Assembly (NCBI RefSeq): GCF_015557635.1
Contig: NZ_JADNOP010000008.1
Location: 1 to 64,000, forward strand
DNA length: 64,000 nucleotides
Direction: 5' to 3'
DNA from: Fusicatenibacter saccharivorans
Lineage (GTDB): Bacteria > Bacillota > Clostridia > Lachnospirales > Lachnospiraceae
This document shows positions 7,231 to 25,430 of the stretch, one piece after another. How positions within the stretch are numbered: the stretch's first letter is position 1; every line of letters begins with the position of its first letter. Below the pieces are notes generated by a model that saw only the letters and a program-made list of their open reading frames with translations, searched no databases and was not told the DNA's origin. Both the position numbers and the translations under genes were made by a program.

Positions 7231-7367
7231 GATGCACGAAAAAGCGGGTGAAGTATCTTGCCGGGGAGACGTGTGCATGGTAAAATAAAGTCTATTGGGA
7301 TGGAAATAAGAGAATCAAAAGAACGGGCTGATGTAGAAGAAGTTTTTCGTAAAAAAGGAGGCACAAA

Positions 7368-10300
7368 GTGGAAGAAGAGAAACTGGAAAGAAGCATCAGA
7401 AAATCAGAGATTCCCGGACTTACGAGGGAAGAGGAGGAAGCACAGCTTGCGAAGGTGATCGGGATTGCCGAGCAGAATCTTGAACAGGCGAAGGCGGATA
7501 TCCGGTCGGCGAATGAGGATCTGGCGGATCTGATGGAGACGTACGACGCAAAAGAGGCGGAAGGCCTGGCGCTCTGGAACAACGCGACGGCGAAGCTGAA
7601 TGCGTACCAGCACGGCATGGCGCGGCTGGAAAAAGCGAGAAAGAAGCCGTATTTCGGGCGGATTGATTTTCAGGATCCGCGGCTTTCGTTTTTAGAGTCC
7701 TATTACATCGGGCGCGTCGGCATTTCCGATGAGAAGGCGGAACCGGTTGTGCTGGACTGGCGGGCGCCGATTTCCTCCGTCTATTATGAGAACAGCACCG
7801 GGCCGTGCAGCTATACGGTGAGTTCAGAGGGTACTTTTTCGATTGATCTGAAAAGAAAGCGGACGTATGAGATTGAAAATGACCATCTGAAAGACTTTTT
7901 TGATTCCGATGTGGTAGCGAACGATGAGCTGCTGACAAAGTATCTGGCGAAGAACAAAAAAGCGGTGCTCGGTGAGATCATTGCGACGATCCAGCAGGAG
8001 CAGAACCTCATTATCCGCAGATCCCCGAAGACGAATCTGATCGTACAGGGCGTGGCTGGTTCCGGAAAGACGACGGTGGCGATGCACCGGATTTCGTACA
8101 TCCTCTATAATTACGAGGAGGACTTCCGGCCGGAGGAGTTCTATATCATTGGAAGCAACCGCATTCTGCTGAACTACATTACCAGCGTTCTGCCGGAACT
8201 CGATGTGTACGGCATCCGTCAGATGACGATGGAGCAGCTTTTTATCCGGCTTCTGTACGAGGACTGGGACGAAGAAAAGTACACGGTACACACCATCGAC
8301 CGCGCGGATGAGAAAAACAGCATAAAGGGCGGAAGCGGCTGGTTTTTCGATCTGGAAAATTTCTGCCGCACGTACGAGGCAGAGCAGATTCCGCGGGAGC
8401 CGGTGCGGCTGGAAAAAACGGGAACATTGCTTCTGGACGCCGAGTATATTGATAACTATTGCAGGGAGCAGTCCACATCTTCCATGGAAGGAAAGATGTG
8501 CATGCTGAACGAGATCCTGCTGGCAAAATTTGAGAACGAGGTTTCGGGAAAAGAAGTGACGTTTCCGGCGCGCGAAAAAAAGGCGCTGAAGCGGAAATAC
8601 GAGAAATATTTTGGAGATGGAAAATGGCGGGGATCCATTTTTGATCTCTATTTACAGTTTCTGGAGCAGCAGGCGGAGAAAGGAAAAGCGGTGGAAGTGC
8701 CGGAAAACTCCTTTGATGTCTATGATCTGGCGGCGCTGGCATACCTCTATAAGCGGATCAAGGAAAACGATCCCGTGCGCGAGGCGAGCCATGTGGTCAT
8801 CGACGAGGCGCAGGATTTCGGGATGATGGCGTACCAGGTGCTTCATTACTGTCTGCGTGACTGTACGTATACCATTATGGGAGATACGTCGCAGAATATC
8901 CATTTTTCCTACGGCCTGAACGACTGGGAGGAGCTGAAAAAGCTGATTCTGACCGGCACGTACGATGCGTTCGGCGTTCTGCGGAAGAGTTACCGGAATA
9001 CGGTGGAGATCTCCGATTTTGCAAACGAGATTCTGCGGCATGGGGACTTTGCGATCTATCCGGTGGAGCCGGTGCTGCGGCACGGAACGGCGGTGCGGAA
9101 AGAAGCATTTGACGATGAAGCGGCGCTGCTCGCCACGGGTGTTCAGACAATCAAAGCATGGCAGGCGCAGGGATATGAGACGATTGCCGTTGTATGCCGG
9201 GATGAGGCAGAAGCGGCGGATACGGCGCGGAAGCTGAAACAATACGTGCCGGTTGTGGAGGAGGATCTCGAGACGGCAGAGTTCGGCGAGGGCGTGATGG
9301 TGCTCCCGGTGGCATATACGAAAGGTCTTGAGTTCGATGCGGTGCTGCTTCTTGATCCGACGGAAGAAAAATATCCTGAAAATGACGGGCAGGTGAAGCT
9401 GCTTTACGTGGCGGCGACGCGGGCACTGCATGAGCTGGCGGTGCTGTATACAGGAGAACTGACGGGAATCCTTGCCAAAGAAGCGCCGAAGGGCCGTCAC
9501 AATCAGGAATTTGCCATGGAGACGCTGACGAAGGCGAAAGAGTATGAGAAGGTTTCGCTGACGCAGAAGGAGGCGCGTGAGGAGAACCGCGCGATCGGCA
9601 TTCAGGAGATGGACGAGCGGAACAGCCATGGACCGAAACGGATTGTGATCAAGCCGGAGCAGAGGCCGGGAATGGCGCTTGGAAATACAAGCACGACCGG
9701 AACAGCGGTGATGGCAAAAGGCAGTACGGCAACGCGGAGGGCTGCGGCAGAAACGGGAGAAGAAATTGCCGCAAAGACAATGCAGCAGCGTGCACCGGAA
9801 GGGGTGTCATCTATTTTTGCTGGTGCGGCTTATCATGGAAAGGCAGGCGGCAAAGCGCCGGGAAGCAGACGGAGTGCAGGAACACAGGCAGGAATGCAAT
9901 ATGGAACGGGCACGGCCGGAGTGCAGAGTGCAAAAAGACCGGGCGGAGCAGGTATGGTACCAGGAGAAGCCGAGAAGACGGAGCGCCTGAATACCTCATC
10001 TTACGCTTTCGGTGCAATCCCGGAAAACGAGCTGCTGCGCATCAAGGGCCATTCGAAGATCAAGTGTGCGGTGAAATGGGCAAAGAAAGGAAAATCGGCG
10101 GTTGAGATTGCCAGCATGTACGGCATCTTACGCATCACCCCGATCACGCCGGAGGTGATCCGCATCAGTTTTGTAAAGGGTGTGACCGCAAAAGTGCAGG
10201 ATACGTACTGGAAGCCGAAGGCAGATACCGCGTTTCCGTGGAGTGCGAAAGAATCGAAGACAGCGGTTCTGGTGGAGACGGAAAAGCTGCGCGTCATGGT

Positions 10301-10703
10301 AGAAAAAAAGGACGGCGCGGTGCAGTTCCTGACGCCGGACAACAAACCAATCCTTTCCGAGAAGCGTGACGAGCCGCGCATGATTGACGGCGGCATGACA
10401 TGGACGTTCTTCGACTGGAGCGGTTCCGAAAAGCTGAAAGCAAAAGGCATTCTTTCGACCGAGTGGCTGGATCTGACCGCGAAGGCGCGCTACGTCTCTT
10501 TTGGCGGAAAGCAGGCGCGGATGCCGCTGCTTGTTTCGAACCGCGGCTACGGCATTGCGGCCGCCGCGTCCCGGACGGCACTGCTGTGCAATGTACGGAC
10601 GTTTGGAACGTATCTTCACACCGCAGGGGACGGACAGATTGATTATTACTTCATTCTCGGAAAAGACCGGGAGGAAATTGTAAAACAGTATAAAGAGCTA
10701 TAA
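7368..10703 (+). CDS. HelD/UvrD-like helicase fused to a GH31 N-terminal-type domain
   Basis: A 1111-residue protein in one open frame. Residues 1 to about 750 are a HelD-type superfamily 1 motor: an N-terminal coiled coil, Walker A G228-VAGSGKTT, Walker B VVID479EAQ, and late motifs (SYRNT, YVAATRALHEL). HelD binds RNA polymerase and recycles stalled complexes. Residues about 770-890 are a low-complexity linker rich in Ala, Gly and Thr. Residues about 905-1111 (YGILRITPITPEVIRISF to the end, with MPLLVSNRGYGI and IDYYFILGKDREEI) match the mutarotase-like N-terminal beta domain of GH31 glucosidases, but the catalytic barrel is absent and the protein stops where it would begin. The start is GTG at 7368 after AAGGAGG. 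topB follows 16 bases downstream. The helicase call is firm; the fusion partner is read by motif pattern. Confidence 0.85.
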   Translation: MEEEKLERSIRKSEIPGLTREEEEAQLAKVIGIAEQNLEQAKADIRSANEDLADLMETYDAKEAEGLALWNNATAKLNAYQHGMARLEKARKKPYFGRIDFQDPRLSFLESYYIGRVGISDEKAEPVVLDWRAPISSVYYENSTGPCSYTVSSEGTFSIDLKRKRTYEIENDHLKDFFDSDVVANDELLTKYLAKNKKAVLGEIIATIQQEQNLIIRRSPKTNLIVQGVAGSGKTTVAMHRISYILYNYEEDFRPEEFYIIGSNRILLNYITSVLPELDVYGIRQMTMEQLFIRLLYEDWDEEKYTVHTIDRADEKNSIKGGSGWFFDLENFCRTYEAEQIPREPVRLEKTGTLLLDAEYIDNYCREQSTSSMEGKMCMLNEILLAKFENEVSGKEVTFPAREKKALKRKYEKYFGDGKWRGSIFDLYLQFLEQQAEKGKAVEVPENSFDVYDLAALAYLYKRIKENDPVREASHVVIDEAQDFGMMAYQVLHYCLRDCTYTIMGDTSQNIHFSYGLNDWEELKKLILTGTYDAFGVLRKSYRNTVEISDFANEILRHGDFAIYPVEPVLRHGTAVRKEAFDDEAALLATGVQTIKAWQAQGYETIAVVCRDEAEAADTARKLKQYVPVVEEDLETAEFGEGVMVLPVAYTKGLEFDAVLLLDPTEEKYPENDGQVKLLYVAATRALHELAVLYTGELTGILAKEAPKGRHNQEFAMETLTKAKEYEKVSLTQKEAREENRAIGIQEMDERNSHGPKRIVIKPEQRPGMALGNTSTTGTAVMAKGSTATRRAAAETGEEIAAKTMQQRAPEGVSSIFAGAAYHGKAGGKAPGSRRSAGTQAGMQYGTGTAGVQSAKRPGGAGMVPGEAEKTERLNTSSYAFGAIPENELLRIKGHSKIKCAVKWAKKGKSAVEIASMYGILRITPITPEVIRISFVKGVTAKVQDTYWKPKADTAFPWSAKESKTAVLVETEKLRVMVEKKDGAVQFLTPDNKPILSEKRDEPRMIDGGMTWTFFDWSGSEKLKAKGILSTEWLDLTAKARYVSFGGKQARMPLLVSNRGYGIAAAASRTALLCNVRTFGTYLHTAGDGQIDYYFILGKDREEIVKQYKEL

Positions 10704-10719
10704 AAGGAGCAGACATTTT

Positions 10720-12909
10720 ATGAAAACTCTGGTAATTGCAGAAAAACCATCCGTGGCACGCGACATTGCGCGCGTACTGGGGTGCAGCAAAAAAGAAAAC
10801 GGAGCGCTGGAGGGAAACAAGTATATCGTTACCTGGGCGCTCGGCCATCTGGTGACGTTAAAAGATCCGGAAGACTATGACAAAAAATATAAGGAATGGA
10901 ATATGGCAGTTCTGCCGATGATGCCGGAAAAACTGCAGATCAAGGTCATTCCGCAGACGGGAAAACAGTACCATGCGGTGACGACACAGCTTGCGCGGAA
11001 GGACGTGAATGAGATTGTCATTGCAACCGATGCCGGACGCGAGGGTGAGCTGGTGGCGCGGTGGATTCTCGACAAAGCACATAACCAGAAGCCGTGTAAG
11101 CGTCTCTGGATTTCCTCTGTGACGGACAAGGCGATCCGTGAGGGTTTTGACAATCTGAAGGATGCGAAAGAGTACGACAATCTCTACCGCGCTGCCGTTT
11201 CCCGTGCCGAGGCGGACTGGCTCGTCGGCATCAATGCGACGCGGGCGCTGACCTGTAAATACAATGCACAGCTTTCCTGCGGCCGTGTGCAGACGCCGAC
11301 ACTTGCCATGATCGCACAGCGCGAGCAGGAAATCCGTGAATTTGTCCCGAAACCGTATTACACGGTGACGGCCGCGGCGGGCGGTGTGGTCTACACCTGG
11401 AAAGATGAAAAATCGGGCGGCACAAGAATCTCCGATCCGGAAAAGGCAAAGCAGATCGCAGAGAAGGCAAAACGGTATCCGCTTGTCTTACAGAACGTAG
11501 AAAAGAAGAAAAAGCAGAAAGAAGCGCCATTGCTCTACGATCTGACGGAGCTGCAGCGCGATGCGAGCGCACGGTTCGGCTATTCGGCAAAACAGACGCT
11601 GAATCTGATGCAGAGCCTCTATGAGACCCATAAAGTCCTTACGTATCCGCGGACAGATTCACGGTATCTGACGAAAGATATTGTGCCGACGTTAAAAGAG
11701 CGGCTGGATGCGGTCAGCATCGGCCCGTACAAAGCACTGGCCCAGCAGGCGAAGCGCAGTCCGCTGAACGGAAAGCTCTCCTTTGTCAATGATGCGAAGG
11801 TTTCCGATCACCATGCCATTATCCCGACGGAGCAGTACGTGCAGTTATCCGCACTCTCGAACGAGGAGCGCCGCATTTATGATCTTGTTGTGCGCCGTTT
11901 TCTTGCGGTACTGCTGCCGCCGTGTGTATATGAAGAGACGGTGATCCGGGCTTCCATCGAAAAGGAATGCTTTACTGCGCGCGGAAAGCGCATGGTCGAG
12001 AAAGGCTGGCAGGAGGCGTACGAGGATAACCGGTACGGCGAAGAGGATGAGGCGAAAGAAGAGGTGCGGGAGCAGAATCTGCCGCTTCTGGAGGCAGGCA
12101 TGAAGATCGGGCAGCCGAAGATCAGTCTCCGCGAAGGAAAGACAAAACCTCCGGCACGCTTCACGGAAGGCACGCTGCTCTCCGCGATGGAAAATCCGGT
12201 CCGCTACATGGAAAACCGCGACAGCAGCCTGGTAAAAACGATCGGTGAGGCGGGCGGCCTTGGAACGGTTGCGACCCGTGCGGATATCATCGAGAAGCTG
12301 TTCCGCAGCTTTCTGCTGGAGAAAAAAGGCAATGAGATCTATCTGACCTCGAAAGCACGCCAGCTTCTGAAGCTGGTTCCGGCGGATTTGAAAAAGCCGG
12401 AGCTGACGGCAAGCTGGGAGATGCAGTTAAACGACATTGCAAAGGGAAAGAAGCGGCGCGATGTGTTTATGGAGGAGATCCGCAGCTACACGGTGGAACT
12501 GATCGATGAGATCAAGACGGAAGAGGGAACGTTCCGCCACGACAACCTGACGAACAAGAAGTGCCCAAACTGCGGAAAACGGCTGCTTGCGGTGAATGGA
12601 AAGAACGCAAAACTGCTCGTCTGCCAGGACAGAGAGTGCGGCTACCGCGAGACGGTTTCCCGCACGACGAATGCGAGATGCCCGGTCTGCCATAAGCGCA
12701 TGGAGATGATCGGAAAGGGCGAGGATGCGACGTTTGTCTGCGCCTGCGGCCACAAAGAGCGCATGACAAAATTCCAAGAGCGCCGCAAAAAAGAGGGCGG
12801 CGGTGTGACGAAGCGCGATGTGGCAGCTTATATGAAGAAACAGAAAAAAGAGGCCGAAGAGCCGGTGAACAATGCGTTTGCCGCGGCATTAAAAGGAATT
12901 AAATTATAA
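10720..12909 (+). CDS. topB: DNA topoisomerase III
   Basis: A 729-residue type IA topoisomerase that relaxes and decatenates DNA through a 5'-phosphotyrosine. The toprim domain starts at residue 3 (VIAEKPSVARDIA) and contains ATDAGREGEL. The catalytic tyrosine is Y309 in LTYPRTDSRYL. Two C-terminal zinc ribbons (CPNCGKRL...CQDRECG and CPVCHKRM...CACG) end the protein. It starts 16 bases after the helicase stop with its own AAAGGAG, so the two are probably co-transcribed. Family length and motifs are complete. Confidence 0.96.
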   Translation: MKTLVIAEKPSVARDIARVLGCSKKENGALEGNKYIVTWALGHLVTLKDPEDYDKKYKEWNMAVLPMMPEKLQIKVIPQTGKQYHAVTTQLARKDVNEIVIATDAGREGELVARWILDKAHNQKPCKRLWISSVTDKAIREGFDNLKDAKEYDNLYRAAVSRAEADWLVGINATRALTCKYNAQLSCGRVQTPTLAMIAQREQEIREFVPKPYYTVTAAAGGVVYTWKDEKSGGTRISDPEKAKQIAEKAKRYPLVLQNVEKKKKQKEAPLLYDLTELQRDASARFGYSAKQTLNLMQSLYETHKVLTYPRTDSRYLTKDIVPTLKERLDAVSIGPYKALAQQAKRSPLNGKLSFVNDAKVSDHHAIIPTEQYVQLSALSNEERRIYDLVVRRFLAVLLPPCVYEETVIRASIEKECFTARGKRMVEKGWQEAYEDNRYGEEDEAKEEVREQNLPLLEAGMKIGQPKISLREGKTKPPARFTEGTLLSAMENPVRYMENRDSSLVKTIGEAGGLGTVATRADIIEKLFRSFLLEKKGNEIYLTSKARQLLKLVPADLKKPELTASWEMQLNDIAKGKKRRDVFMEEIRSYTVELIDEIKTEEGTFRHDNLTNKKCPNCGKRLLAVNGKNAKLLVCQDRECGYRETVSRTTNARCPVCHKRMEMIGKGEDATFVCACGHKERMTKFQERRKKEGGGVTKRDVAAYMKKQKKEAEEPVNNAFAAALKGIKL

Positions 12910-15296: not shown

Positions 15297-15320
15297 ATTG
15301 GGAAAAGAAGGGTGAAACTT

Positions 15321-17570
15321 ATGGAGAAAACAACGAAAAACGGAATCCACCGGATCCGCCAGGAGGGCGGAAAAACGATCGCCTGGGCAGAAGAGTCCGG
15401 CGTAAAAGTATTGGAAAAAGATGGATATTACTTTAAAGACCTGGCAAAAACCGGCGAACTGCTGCCGTACGAGGACTGGCGCCTCTCCGATGAGGAGAGA
15501 GCCGCAGACCTTGCGGGCCGTCTTTCCATCGAGGAGATCGCTGGCCTTATGCTGTACTCACCGCACCAGGCCGTACCGCCGATGCCGGGCGGTCCGTTCC
15601 AGGGAACGTTTGACGGAAAAACGTATCTGGAATCCGGCAAAGAACCGTATGCGATTTCTGATCAGCAGAAAGAATTTCTGGAGGACGAGCATATCCGCCA
15701 TATCCTGCTGACGAACGTGGAAAGCCCGGAGATTTCCGCAAAATGGAGCAATGAGCTGCAGAAACGGGCGGAGACACTGCCGTATGGTATTCCGATCAAC
15801 CTCTCCTCTGATCCGCGGAACGGAGCAAAGGATTCCGGCGCAGAGTTCAAGAGCGGCGGAAGCGAGATCAGCAAATGGCCGGAGGGTGTCGGCTTTGCAG
15901 CATGCTTTGACCCGGAAGTAGCCGGACAGTTTGCAAAGGATGCCTCCCGTGAATACCGGGCACTCGGCATCACAACGGCACTCGGACCGCAGATCGACCT
16001 CTGCACCGAGCCGAGATGGATGCGCTTTGTCGATACGTTAGGCGAAGAAGTGGAGATGTCCAAAAAGCTTACCAAAGCGTACTGTGACGGTATGCAGACA
16101 ACGGAAGGGGAAGCAGACGGCTGGGGAAAAGACAGCGTCAACACGATGGTCAAACACTGGCCGGGCGGCGGCACCGGAGAGGCCGGACGCGATGCACACT
16201 ATGCATTCGGACAGTTTGCCGTTTATCCGACCGGAAATTTTGAGGAGCATTTAAAACCGTTTACCGAGGCAGCCTTTCACCTGGACGGACCGACCGACTG
16301 CGCATCCGCGGTTATGCCGTACTACACCGTATCCTACGGCGTGGACAAGAAAAACGACAAGAACGTCGGAAACTCCTACAGCGAGTACCTGATCAAGGAT
16401 CTGCTGCGCGGAAAATATGAATTCAAAGGCATTGTCTGCACCGACTGGGGCATCACCCAGGATCCGGAGAAGACGATTGAGGGATTTGGAAGCCGCTGCT
16501 ACGGCGTGCAGGATATGACCGAGGCAGAACGGTGTCTGCTGGCGATCACAAACGGCGTTGACCAGTTCGGCGGAAACAGCGAGTCCGGTCCGATTGTCGA
16601 GGCGTATAAGATCGGCTGTGAGAAATACGGCGAGAAAGCGATGCGTGAGCGCATGGAGCTGTCCGCCAAACGTCTTCTGATCAACATTTTCCACTGCGGC
16701 TTGTTTGAGGACCCGTATCTTGATCCGGAAGAATCCGCAAAGATTGTAGGATGCGAAGAGTTCTGCCGCCATGGCTATGAGGCACAGAAGAAATCCATCG
16801 TCCTGCTGAAAAACAGTGCGAAACGCGCACCGGAAGGACAGAAGGGTGTGCTGCCGCTGAAGAAAGGTTTGAAGGTTTATATTCCGGAGAGAAAGATCGG
16901 ACCGTCCAAAGCGTTCTTCCGCATCGATCTGCCGGCAAAAACCGAAGATCCGCTGCCGGATGGACTGCCGTCCAAGTACGGTACACGCGTGGCATCACCG
17001 GAGGAGGCCGATGTGGCGCTGGTATTTATCGAAAGCCCGGCATGCAACCCGTATTCCACCGAAGATCTTGCGAACGGCGGCAACGGCTATCTGCCGATTA
17101 CACTGCAGTACCGCCCGTATACGGCGAAAAAAGCGCGTGAGGTCAGCATTGCCGGCGGCGATTTCCGCGAGAATTTCACGAACCGCAGCTATCTTGGAAA
17201 GACAAACACTGCCTACAACGAGGCTGATCTCGACAATATTCTCGAATGCCGCCGCGCGATGGGCGACAAGCCGGTGATCGTCTGCGCAACCGTCAACAAC
17301 CCGATGGTGATGCATGAATTTGAAGCCGAAGCCGATGCGATCGTCGCAGAGTTCGGTGTTTCGAGAGCCGCTGTGCTTGACGTTGTCTTCGGCGATTACA
17401 ACCCGACCGGCCGTCTGCCGATCCAGATGCCGAAGGATATGGATGCGGTTGAGGAGCAGAGCGAGGACCGTGCGTTGGATATGGAAACCTATATTGACAG
17501 CGAAGGACATAACTATGACTACGGTTATGGCATGAATTACGAAGGCGTTCTTCCTGCATGGAAAAAGTAA
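15321..17570 (+). CDS. GH3 glycoside hydrolase, second type
   Basis: A 749-residue GH3 protein only distantly similar to its neighbour. The barrel nucleophile is D375 in IVCTDWGITQD, and the usual KHF motif is replaced by VKHWPGGG with GRDAHYAFG after it. The second domain shows SIVLLKN and the later ACNPYS and DYNPTGRLP stretches; the C-terminal fibronectin domain of the first enzyme is missing. It is probably a beta-glucosidase or beta-xylosidase with a different aglycone preference. The start is the ATG at 15321 after AAGGGTG; a GTG at 15312 overlaps that site. Co-transcribed with the upstream GH3. Confidence 0.88.
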   Translation: MEKTTKNGIHRIRQEGGKTIAWAEESGVKVLEKDGYYFKDLAKTGELLPYEDWRLSDEERAADLAGRLSIEEIAGLMLYSPHQAVPPMPGGPFQGTFDGKTYLESGKEPYAISDQQKEFLEDEHIRHILLTNVESPEISAKWSNELQKRAETLPYGIPINLSSDPRNGAKDSGAEFKSGGSEISKWPEGVGFAACFDPEVAGQFAKDASREYRALGITTALGPQIDLCTEPRWMRFVDTLGEEVEMSKKLTKAYCDGMQTTEGEADGWGKDSVNTMVKHWPGGGTGEAGRDAHYAFGQFAVYPTGNFEEHLKPFTEAAFHLDGPTDCASAVMPYYTVSYGVDKKNDKNVGNSYSEYLIKDLLRGKYEFKGIVCTDWGITQDPEKTIEGFGSRCYGVQDMTEAERCLLAITNGVDQFGGNSESGPIVEAYKIGCEKYGEKAMRERMELSAKRLLINIFHCGLFEDPYLDPEESAKIVGCEEFCRHGYEAQKKSIVLLKNSAKRAPEGQKGVLPLKKGLKVYIPERKIGPSKAFFRIDLPAKTEDPLPDGLPSKYGTRVASPEEADVALVFIESPACNPYSTEDLANGGNGYLPITLQYRPYTAKKAREVSIAGGDFRENFTNRSYLGKTNTAYNEADLDNILECRRAMGDKPVIVCATVNNPMVMHEFEAEADAIVAEFGVSRAAVLDVVFGDYNPTGRLPIQMPKDMDAVEEQSEDRALDMETYIDSEGHNYDYGYGMNYEGVLPAWKK

Positions 17571-22416: not shown

Positions 22417-22884
22417 ATGGAGAAGACAAACAAGATGGAAGAAACGAAAGAAACACAGGAAAGCTTACAGCGAAAAAGAGAACAGGCCCTGCAGCGGCTC
22501 CGCAAGGAGCGGACAGAAGAAGCTCTGTGGGACTGTGTTACTGCGTATCAGGATTTTGAGTTCCATACGTACTCCGGCCTGCCGTATTCCTACTATATGA
22601 AATACGGCAGAAGCGGCATCTATACAAAAGAGCTCTGGATCAACCGCAGAGAAAAAAGCAAAAGTCTTGTCTGGAGCTCCGTCCGGAGTGCATATCAGAA
22701 AGTGCTGGAATTACAGCAGGAGAGCGAAAGACCGGTTGTCGAGCGCCCGAAAGCGCTGGGCGATATTCGTGGAATCACGTATATTTACGGCATCTTTTAC
22801 GAGTTTGCCCTGCTGGAAATGCCGGAAAAAGCAAAAGAAAAAATTGCTCTGCAGACAGCAGGACAAAAATCGCCGGAAAAATAA
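22417..22884 (+). CDS. Hypothetical protein
   Basis: 155 residues, not recognised. It begins with a charged coiled-coil-like stretch (about 1-45) and has a compact aromatic-rich core with FEFHTYSGLPYSYYMKYG and DIRGITYIYGIFYEFALLE. No signal peptide, membrane segment or catalytic motif is visible. The ATG at 22435 is an equally possible start because GGATGGAG lies before it. It follows the amidohydrolase remnant by 8 bases, so it was probably the next gene of that operon. Confidence 0.6.
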   Translation: MEKTNKMEETKETQESLQRKREQALQRLRKERTEEALWDCVTAYQDFEFHTYSGLPYSYYMKYGRSGIYTKELWINRREKSKSLVWSSVRSAYQKVLELQQESERPVVERPKALGDIRGITYIYGIFYEFALLEMPEKAKEKIALQTAGQKSPEK

Positions 22885-22904
22885 ATTTTCCGCCCATGTA
22901 GGTC

Positions 22905-22932
22905 TTGACAACCACGCATTGGGTGATATAAT
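22905..22932 (+). promoter_or_regulatory. Promoter of the thrS T-box transcript
   Basis: TTGACA (22905-22910) and TATAAT (22927-22932) with 16 bases between, both perfect consensus. Confidence 0.88.
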
Positions 22933-22938
22933 CTAAAA

Positions 22939-23212
22939 CTATCGGGAGCCAAAAAGCACCGAACACAAAAAACAAAGCGTAGAAGAGACGAGTAAATCAC
23001 AGCGAATGTGACAGAGAGAAACCCCGTTTTGTGGTGCAAGGGTTTTAACAGGAACGTGATCGAAGACCAGCTCTGAGCGGCCCCAATCCGGCCCGGTGAT
23101 TCCGTTATCGTCAAATGAAGTGGTTTGAAAAAACAAAATGGGTGGAACCGCGGTGAATGAAAATACATCGTCCCTTTTGACAGCATAAGCGTGTCAGAAG
23201 GGACTTTTTTGT
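22939..23212 (+). promoter_or_regulatory. T-box riboswitch (threonine) upstream of thrS
   Basis: The T-box bulge core GGGTGGAACCGCG lies at 23140-23152. Stem I carries AGTA and the specifier region CGAAGACCAG, whose likely specifier codon is ACC (23066-23068), a threonine codon followed by A. The terminator is GTCCCTTTTGACA (23170-23182) pairing with TGTCAGAAGGGAC (23192-23204) and a T run. Uncharged tRNA-Thr would pair with specifier and bulge and favour read-through into thrS. Confidence 0.93.
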
Positions 23213-23279
23213 TGCTGTAAAAAGTATAAAAATTCTGAAACACGCTTGCGAAAAATATACAAAGAAAGAGGTAAAGCAA

Positions 23280-25217
23280 ATGATCATCACACTGAAAGAT
23301 GGAAGTACCAAAGAGTACTCCGAACCAAAATCCATCATTGAGATCGCAGCAGACATCAGCGAAGGCCTTGCAAGAATGGCCTGTGCAGGTGAAGTAAACG
23401 GTGAAGTAGAAGATCTTCGTACCGTCATCGACAAGGACTGCAATCTTTCCATTCTGACCTTCAACGATGAAGGCGGAAAAGCAGCATTCCGTCACACCAC
23501 ATCCCATATTATGGCACAGGCAATCAAGAGACTGTACCCGGAGACCAAGCTTGCAATCGGACCGTCCATCGCAGACGGATTCTACTACGATGTAGACAGA
23601 GAAACTCCACTCACCAGCGAAGACCTTGAAAAAATCGAAGCAGAAATGAAGAAAATTGTAAAAGAGGATCTGAAACTGGAGCGTTTTGAGCTGCCGAGAG
23701 CAGAAGCCATCGCCTTCATGAAAGAAAAAGAAGAGCCATATAAAGTAGAACTGATCGAAGATCTGCCGGAAGATGCAGTCATCAGCTTCTATCGTCAGGG
23801 TGAATTTACGGACCTGTGCGCAGGCCCTCATCTGATGAGCACAAAGCCGGTCAAAGCCTTCAAACTGACCAGCCTTGCAGGTGCATACTGGAGAGGCAGC
23901 GAGAAAAACAAGATGCTGCAGAGAATCTACGGAACTGCATTCACAAAGAAAGCAGAGCTCGAAGAGTACCTCCACATGATCGAGGAAGCAAAGAAACGTG
24001 ACCACAGAAAACTCGGAAAAGAGCTCGGCCTGTTTATGATGAGTGAGGACGGCCCGGGATTCCCGTTCTTCCTTCCAAAAGGAATGGATCTGAAAAATGC
24101 ACTGATGGATTACTGGCGTGAAATCCACAGAAAAGCAGGATACGTAGAAATCTCTACACCGATCATCCTGAACCGTCGCCTGTGGGAGACCTCCGGTCAC
24201 TGGGATCACTACAAAGAAAACATGTATACCACCGTCATCGACGATGAAGATTATGCAATCAAACCGATGAACTGCCCGGGCGGCGTTCTCGTTTACAAAT
24301 CCGAGCCTCGTTCCTACCGTGATTTGCCGCTGCGTCTGGCAGAGGTTGGCCTGGTACATCGTCATGAGAAATCCGGCCAGCTGCACGGCCTGATGCGTGT
24401 ACGCTGCTTCAACCAGGACGATGCCCATATCTTCATGACACCGGAGCAGATCAAAGATGAAATCAAAGGCGTTGCAAACCTGATTGACCAGGTTTACAAA
24501 CTGTTCGGATTCAAATATCACGTAGAGCTGTCCACCCGTCCGGAAGACAGCATGGGAAGCGATGAGGACTGGGAGGTAGCAACCGAAGGTCTCCGCGGCG
24601 CACTTGATGACCTTGGCCTTGACTATGTAGTCAACGAAGGCGACGGCGCATTCTATGGCCCGAAGATCGACTTCCATCTGGAAGACTCCATCGGAAGAAC
24701 GTGGCAGTGCGGTACCATCCAGCTTGACTTCCAGCTGCCGCAGAGATTCGAACTGGAATACACAGGAGCAGACGGCGAGAAACATCGTCCGATTATGATC
24801 CACCGTGTTGTTTACGGTTCTGTTGAGCGTTTCATCGGTATCCTGATCGAGCACTTTGCAGGCGCATTCCCAACCTGGCTTGCACCGGTACAGGTAAAGG
24901 TTCTGCCAATCTCCGACAAATACGCAGATTACGGCAAAAAGGTTCTGGACGCCCTTCATGAGGCAGGCATCCGCGCAGAGATGGATACCCGTTCCGAGAA
25001 GATCGGATATAAGATCCGTGAGGCACAGGGACAGAAGATTCCATACATGCTGATCGCCGGAGCAAAAGAGGAAGAGGCAGGTCTTGTATCTGTCAGAAGC
25101 CGTTTTGCAGGTGATGAAGGCCAGAGAAGCCTGGAGCAGTTTATCGCAGATATCAAAGAAGAAATCGCAAGCCGCGTTAACCGCCCGGTTACTGTTGAAA
25201 CAAAAGAAAATAAATAA
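23280..25217 (+). CDS. thrS: Threonyl-tRNA synthetase
   Basis: A 645-residue class II synthetase joining threonine to tRNA-Thr. The domain order is TGS (1-60), N2/SAD editing domain (about 65-220, with HTTSHIMAQAI and the CAGPH motif), catalytic core (about 245-535) and anticodon domain (about 540-640). The zinc ligands that select threonine are C332 (MNCPGG), H383 (QDDAHIF) and H508 (MIHR). The start at 23280 follows AAAGAGGTAAAG. Regulated by the T-box just upstream. Complete length. Confidence 0.97.
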   Translation: MIITLKDGSTKEYSEPKSIIEIAADISEGLARMACAGEVNGEVEDLRTVIDKDCNLSILTFNDEGGKAAFRHTTSHIMAQAIKRLYPETKLAIGPSIADGFYYDVDRETPLTSEDLEKIEAEMKKIVKEDLKLERFELPRAEAIAFMKEKEEPYKVELIEDLPEDAVISFYRQGEFTDLCAGPHLMSTKPVKAFKLTSLAGAYWRGSEKNKMLQRIYGTAFTKKAELEEYLHMIEEAKKRDHRKLGKELGLFMMSEDGPGFPFFLPKGMDLKNALMDYWREIHRKAGYVEISTPIILNRRLWETSGHWDHYKENMYTTVIDDEDYAIKPMNCPGGVLVYKSEPRSYRDLPLRLAEVGLVHRHEKSGQLHGLMRVRCFNQDDAHIFMTPEQIKDEIKGVANLIDQVYKLFGFKYHVELSTRPEDSMGSDEDWEVATEGLRGALDDLGLDYVVNEGDGAFYGPKIDFHLEDSIGRTWQCGTIQLDFQLPQRFELEYTGADGEKHRPIMIHRVVYGSVERFIGILIEHFAGAFPTWLAPVQVKVLPISDKYADYGKKVLDALHEAGIRAEMDTRSEKIGYKIREAQGQKIPYMLIAGAKEEEAGLVSVRSRFAGDEGQRSLEQFIADIKEEIASRVNRPVTVETKENK

Positions 25218-25430
25218 GGTAGGTGTCAAAAAAATTGACACCTATGATACCAGATTGCTCCGTACTTCGTACTCCCGCAATCTTCAAAACATTCGTACTC
25301 CGCTCATTTTTCTTCGAAAAATGGCTACTTACTTATGTTTTGGCGTGTCCAAAATTTAAAAATCCTCGTGCAAGCTTTGCTTGCGTCGGATTTCCAAACT
25401 TTGGACACTGGTATTATCAAATAAATAAGG
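25208..25430 (+). repeat. Palindromic insertion element flanked by 12-bp direct repeats
   Basis: AAATAAATAAGG occurs at 25208-25219, overlapping the thrS stop, and again at 25419-25430. Between them lie 199 bases built almost entirely of nested hairpins: TAGGTGTCAA (25220-25229) with TTGACACCTA (25235-25244); AGATTGC with GCAATCT (about 25252-25282); CATTTTTC with GAAAAATG (about 25306-25323); and GTGTCCAAA with TTTGGACAC (about 25345-25408). GATACCAG (25246-25253) is mirrored by CTGGTATTATC at the right end. No protein is encoded. The flanking repeats look like a target-site duplication. Confidence 0.65.

Follow-up and report, generated by a model that had tools for sequence, protein, structure and literature searches.

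The window analysed here is a 64,000-nucleotide stretch of Fusicatenibacter saccharivorans (Lachnospiraceae; contig NZ_JADNOP010000008.1, positions 1 to 64,000), and its gene at 7368-10703 on the forward strand encodes a motor of the HelD type that carries a domain of sugar-enzyme ancestry at its C-terminus. The gene is a single frame of 1111 codons, from a GTG start to a TAA stop, and a ribosome-binding site (aaggagg, 7355..7361), read directly from the sequence, lies 6 bases 5′ of the start codon. The product consists of a superfamily 1 (SF1) motor (residues 1-705, 7368..9482), a basic linker (residues 706-872, 9483..9983) and a beta-sandwich (residues 873-1111, 9984..10700) that is homologous to the N-terminal domain of glycoside hydrolase family 31 (GH31) enzymes; these and all other features of the gene lie on the same (+) strand. 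An earlier note, made from the sequence alone, had described this frame as a HelD-type motor fused to a GH31 N-terminal domain without the catalytic barrel, and the observation is confirmed as a real gene fusion. No stop or rearrangement occurs between residues 750 and 890 in the assembly. We collected 36 distinct full-length fused proteins, including those of nine loci in named GenBank records (from Blautia, Eisenbergiella and one uncultured Lachnospiraceae assembly), all nine of which are fused. These proteins refute an assembly or annotation artefact, for which no supporting point was found and whose probability we regard as practically negligible.

The HelD-type motor

The motor was identified by phmmer, by the NCBIfam model HelD_BACSU and by Foldseek. 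HelD is its closest solved structure by both sequence and fold. The motor matched Bacillus subtilis HelD (6wvk_H) with an E-value of 1.3e-70 in phmmer, a profile of 35 fused proteins matched B. subtilis HelD at 6.7e-102, and 6wvk_H (E 1.1e-40), followed by 6zca_H, headed the Foldseek matches of the full-length model. The Walker A motif (residues 228-236, 8049..8075) and the Walker B motif DEAQD (residues 479-483, 8802..8816) stand where the earlier note had placed them, and their patterns were found in all 36 fused proteins. Indeed, the five motor patterns searched, which represent SF1 NTPase motifs, were all present in 36/36. An N-terminal coiled coil (residues 20-92, 7425..7643) is formed by helices 20-58 and 64-92 in the model, and the phmmer alignment of this region to B. 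subtilis HelD starts at residue 31. The coiled coil of HelD is described as inserted into the secondary channel of RNA polymerase (PMC7749165), and by homology the N-terminal coiled coil of the fused protein is expected to enter the channel in the same way. At the position of the HelD main-channel arm, a gap between two matched segments marks an insert (approximately residues 292-449, 8241..8714), which is about 60 residues shorter than that of B. subtilis HelD (297-516 in 6wvk_H). Both hallmarks of HelD, the coiled coil at the N-terminus and the arm within the motor, are thus predicted for the fused protein, the insert being helical in the model and the fold matching 6wvk_H.

The score against HelD_BACSU (NF041464) places the motor at some distance from the standard HelD proteins. 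The window protein scored 354 bits against the equivalog cut-off of 419 bits given by NCBI, and two further fused proteins (362 and 346 bits) and three unfused relatives (L123, L125 and L018, with 352, 375 and 331 bits) also remained below it. A standard HelD paralog encoded elsewhere in the genome of the window (L085, contig C22) reached 451 bits, and a more distant HelD (L029) 483 bits. A second HelD at 31-33% identity was also found in other genomes with the fusion (e.g. G002, G034, G120, G132 and G233) in a motor search of 250 genomes, in which up to four candidates were scored per genome. Because the window protein and its fused and unfused relatives all fall below 419 bits while the paralog lies above, the motor, judged by these scores, belongs to a divergent HelD-like subfamily, and the genome encodes a standard HelD in addition. 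The identification of the motor as HelD therefore stands in the sense of HelD-like and not in the sense of a standard HelD. Compared with the B. subtilis class (NF041464, PDB 6wvk/6zca), the fused proteins share the SF1 motor, the coiled coil, the inserted arm and the five motor patterns, whereas the three scanned differ in score (346-362 bits) and the fused proteins have a shorter arm and an additional linker and C-terminal domain. B. subtilis HelD is reported to act together with the delta subunit (PMC7749165). Of 26 fused and 17 unfused genomes, one in each group contained the delta family PF05066, and a relation between delta and the fusion was rejected.

The GH31-type C-terminal domain and its linker

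Taken alone, the C-terminal domain of the window had no Pfam match at E ≤ 10 and only weak matches against PDB (7kmp, E 0.066). A profile of 17 orthologous domains (set A1), however, matched GH31 alpha-xylosidases in PDB at 7.1e-12, 1.1e-10 and 1.7e-9. A DYYF stretch is part of the profile match; in BoGH31A (5jou) it was matched separately, about 170 residues further on. The Pfam family PF13802 (Gal_mutarotas_2) matched seven of the 17 orthologous domains, with a best E-value of 7.3e-5, and left the domain of the window unmatched. The predicted structure of the domain had a predicted local distance difference test score (pLDDT) of 85.3 and a predicted template modelling score (pTM) of 0.87. 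Its top Foldseek match was a GH31 dextranase (E 2.2e-11, TMq 0.77), and entries of the YicI type (8t7z, 1we5 and 9q5c), with which the earlier note had proposed a superposition, gave TMq values of 0.72-0.75. Many of the 50 matches listed were titled GH31 and no other enzyme kind appeared among them, if the remaining titles (sucrase-isomaltase, MGAM, GAA, other alpha-glucosidases and lmo2446) are, as we assume, GH31 enzymes as well. The C-terminal domain is therefore homologous to the GH31 N-terminal beta-sandwich, as the earlier note had supposed from motif patterns.

The barrel is absent. In a complete GH31 enzyme (L073), the profile match stops at residue 232 and the TIM barrel domain PF01055 starts at residue 235, so that the fused domain ends at the border of the barrel, in agreement with the earlier note. 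No match to PF01055 was found in the fused protein at 0.001 and the protein ends at residue 1111, whereas PF01055 was present in all seven GH31 relatives scanned with Pfam (L073, L074, L075, L088, L142, L143 and L146). Compared with GH31 N-terminal domains (PF13802; BoGH31A 5jou, FjDex31A 6jr8 and YicI 1we5), the fused domain has a homologous fold and shared conserved positions, but it has none of the catalytic residues because there is no barrel; typical residues are replaced, an N-terminal extension is present, and the domain is basic instead of acidic. Among the GH31 relatives, the enzyme at L088:5955-9503 (-) in G002 follows a partial GH127 arabinofuranosidase domain within the same 1183-residue frame.

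The linker between the two parts is predicted to be disordered over most of its length. In the full-length model, the motor is largely confident and the domain is confident from about residue 873, while pLDDT is below 50 at residues 713-737 and 746-871. The linker measures 66-175 residues in 35 of the 36 fused proteins, the measure for the remaining one (L107) being spoiled by a spurious match. It could be cut by pattern from 31 of the 36 proteins, and 30 of these 31 linkers carry a net positive charge. Twelve pairs of close relatives were compared; nine gave linker dN/dS values (0.07-0.88) and three gave none. The linker had been described as low-complexity, which is correct but incomplete, since a motif recurs in it: GPKRI (residues 755-759, 9630..9644) belongs to a pattern GP[KR].I found in 11 of the 31 linkers. 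In several Eisenbergiella proteins, the otherwise fast-changing linker contains KKRISIVRN.

Distribution, origin and change of the fused domain

A set of 397 genomes, taken as Lachnospiraceae on the basis of the named fused relatives, was searched for the fused-type domain, and strong matches were found in 33 of them including that of the window (E 2.8e-115 to 1.3e-34). The strongest complete GH31 enzyme in this search (G347:C18, E 2.6e-36) falls inside this range; the other matches of GH31 size scored lower. Thirty loci were examined. Motor and domain form one frame in 27; in two (G078 and G012) a contig end interrupts the locus, and in G178 the two parts lie in adjacent overlapping frames. 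Among the remaining three of the 33 genomes, G319 and G274 are fused and G387 was judged solely by a 1023-residue frame. The 36 full-length fused proteins, some of which come from closely related species, are 1001-1152 residues long, and they answer the proposal of the earlier note to look for the same domain pair in other Lachnospiraceae. In an order-wide search (295 genomes, matches to 1e-15), five matches lay in frames of 1016-1116 residues, all within the family, and 11 genomes outside the family matched in frames of 784-825 residues, two of which were scanned with Pfam and are GH31 enzymes. A phylum-wide search (398 genomes) matched only the genome of the window and one frame with GH31 domains at a contig end. 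The fusion was thus not found outside the family in the 295 order-wide and 398 phylum-wide genomes sampled. Two apparent cases of a stand-alone C-terminal domain were rejected, as L009 is actually fused and G012 lies at a contig end. G078 is split over two contigs by contig ends. In the G178 locus (L108:6782-9887, +), the motor and the GH31-like domain occupy two overlapping frames, reflecting a natural split or a sequencing error. G145 contains a piece of 122 residues (L165) with a match to the domain profile at 65.7 bits and none to a Pfam family.

In a tree of 71 motors, a quick tree computed without bootstrap and with long branches among distant rows, the 37 fused motors form one side of one branch (Shimodaira-Hasegawa-like approximate likelihood ratio test (SH-aLRT) 99), with one state change. 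The nearest relatives of the fused clade (L123, L124 and L163) have no C-terminal domain, and no unfused row of this tree is nested within the clade. Since the fused rows are one clade with one state change, the trees indicate that the fusion was gained once, in an ancestor within the family, with no loss seen. A tree of 73 domains likewise separates 48 HelD-linked domains from 25 GH31 N-terminal domains by one branch (SH-aLRT 99). In a search for the donor in this tree, none of the 25 GH31 domains nested with the fused domains. The unfused relative at L163:5490-8027 (-) in G202 has 846 residues, and its shifted Pfam positions place the extra length before and inside the motor.

The dN/dS values of the C-terminal domain were 0.04-0.18 in 11 of the 12 pairs, the twelfth (L091/L092) being uninformative with 1.16 on a dS of 0.006; several dS values exceeded 1. 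These ratios show, at the sequence level, that the domain is under purifying selection. Residues were compared after removal of near-copies between 38 fused domains, one of which (L044) was cut too far upstream, and 25 GH31 domains. Glycine 1025, present in 25/25 GH31 domains, is replaced by alanine in 33/38 fusions, and A1040 (36/38), S1044 (36/38) and C1074 (37/38) are, like A1025, found in 0/25 GH31 domains. The motif GLG occurs in 24/25 GH31 domains and 3/38 fusions, HQAN in 12/25 and 0/38, and, conversely, the pattern [AS][RK]Y[IVL]S in 0/25 and 32/38. The replaced region lies near the substrate in GH31 enzymes. Other positions, such as G919, R932, E998, E1021, G1027, Y1042, S1057, Y1061, D1092 and F1095, are conserved in both groups. 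An N-terminal extension, FGxxPxxxxL (residues 879-894, 10002..10049), is specific to the fusions: its F, G, P and L are kept in 36, 36, 35 and 36 of the 38 rows, and the whole motif occurs in 33/38 fused rows against 0/25 GH31 frames searched up to 60 residues upstream, 23 of which have fewer than 20 residues there, most starting at about this point.

The net charge of the domain is reversed. Over 220 shared columns its median is +7 in the 38 fusions (1 to 14) and -8 in the 25 GH31 domains (-16 to 3). Positions 903, 961, 1019 and 1041 hold a basic residue in 34, 36, 34 and 35 of the 38 fusions, and in 1, 4, 1 and 0 of the 25 GH31 domains, respectively. The changed charge and key residues suggest that the domain may now do a different job.

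Possible function and genomic neighbourhood

By homology, the motor would engage stalled RNA polymerase and clear it in the manner of HelD. The C-terminal domain may no longer take part in sugar chemistry. From sequence and predicted structure we propose that the GH31 domain, joined once to this divergent motor, has become a basic module on a tether, by which the motor docks to RNA polymerase or nucleic acid, and we give this proposal about an even chance. Such a module would hold the motor on the polymerase or its nucleic acids during work, with DNA, RNA or a polymerase subunit as the target surface, and might in this way influence polymerase recycling. In a broader account, to which we give somewhat less than an even chance, a single fusion and a reversal of charge exapted a sugar-enzyme domain as an anchor to nucleic acid or RNA polymerase. 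The motor so anchored would be a second, specialised one of the HelD type that occurs in part of one family of gut bacteria. The anchoring logic would be analogous to that of PcrA/UvrD, the nearest known architecture, an SF1 motor with a Tudor beta domain on a long, apparently disordered linker that varies among orthologues; in PcrA, the Tudor domain is reported to bind RNA polymerase, with the motor positioned close to the exit channels (PMC8318588). The fused protein is predicted to follow this plan, its SF1 motor being connected through a disordered linker to a small beta domain at the C-terminus. However, the fold is not Tudor, its listed matches being of the GH31 type, and binding to RNA polymerase was measured for PcrA but would apply to the fused protein by analogy.

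Several points weigh against the docking proposal. The positive charge could also mediate contacts to acidic proteins or to the acidic core of the motor itself (net charge -38 in the window). That the motor would bind polymerase is deduced from homology, and a motor scoring below 419 bits may have drifted in function. With a pTM of 0.55, the full-length model gives the domain no fixed placement, and it neither supports nor excludes a partner. The protein of the window has G in place of K at position 1019, and the counts of charge and conservation do not represent independent events, as the sequences are related.

The same data allow other explanations. The N-terminal extension and the newly acquired, nearly invariant residues point to a specific interface, by which the domain may dock on some protein that has nothing to do with RNA polymerase or nucleic acid. 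No gene of the neighbourhood is conserved that would identify such a partner, which is a weak argument, and we judge this explanation fairly unlikely. The fusion-specific extension could also form an interface with the motor itself. In such autoinhibition, the basic linker and domain (+8 and +12 in the window) would fold on the acidic core and keep it blocked as long as they are not displaced by RNA polymerase or nucleic acid. However, the core is no more acidic in fused proteins (median net charge -17) than in unfused ones (-18), and the full-length model contains no confident docking. We judge self-docking unlikely. A domain without a function of its own, the fossil of a chance gene fusion, would fit the greater divergence of the domain (26-47% identity to 16 A1 relatives) than of the fused motors (about 50-66%). 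It fits poorly with the absence of unfused rows in the fused clade, with the low dN/dS values of the domain beside linker values of up to 0.88, and with the near-invariant residues that the domain has newly acquired, and we consider it very unlikely.

The earlier note had also raised the idea that the domain senses a carbohydrate, and had pointed to the surrounding glycosidases. A GH31 domain that binds a sugar or glycan would couple transcription recycling to carbohydrate supply, in line with the fold and ancestry of the domain and with the GH78, GH3 and GH2 genes near the fused gene in the window. These neighbours are not conserved. In a tally of mechanically picked ORFs of 140-900 amino acids, up to two per side, excluding longer ORFs and those cut by locus ends, the first of the 112 neighbour proteins from 31 other fused loci is an alpha-amylase, and no glycoside hydrolase family has more than two members among them. 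The 25 commonest of 143 neighbour families, the rarest with two members, include no glycoside hydrolase family. The glycosidases of the window are therefore no evidence on the domain, and the surroundings were rejected as a clue to function. Because the neighbours are unconserved, the GH31 loop residues are replaced (G1025 by A in 33/38 fusions, HQAN in none) and the charge is reversed, a carbohydrate-sensing role is weakened. Isolated GH31 N-terminal domains are not known as sugar binders. We consider this role quite unlikely.

The docking proposal concerns a subfamily that appears undescribed in a survey of HelD classes, since the proteins listed there have 671-872 residues (PMC8655204) and the fused proteins have 1001-1152 and an added domain. 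None of the words glycos, extension, topoisomerase and C-terminal appears in the main text of that survey. No report of a fusion between HelD and a GH31 N-terminal domain was found in a literature search that reached few subscription papers and preprints. A fused subfamily of this kind would demonstrate a diversification of transcription recycling in gut bacteria. Its closely related fused and unfused motors offer a natural experiment on what the tethered domain adds, and the fusion is a clear instance in which a domain of carbohydrate enzymes was transferred to the information-processing machinery and its charge switched measurably.

Downstream of the fused gene, the DNA topoisomerase III gene topB (10720-12909, +) has an aaggag of its own, and 16 bases separate its ATG from the stop codon of the fused gene. 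The two genes may be co-transcribed in the window. topB was a neighbour in none of the 36 other distinct fused loci in the neighbour clustering. A related gene of the topB cluster is also found within a few ORFs of L085, the second HelD in this genome. Elsewhere in the window, a second, divergent GH3-like protein (15312-17570, +) is encoded beside a standard GH3 and scores 95 bits against the NCBIfam model BglX, whose cut-off is 666. An 814-residue open frame (22797-25241, -), which had no Pfam match at 1e-10, overlaps a 645-residue frame on the other strand.

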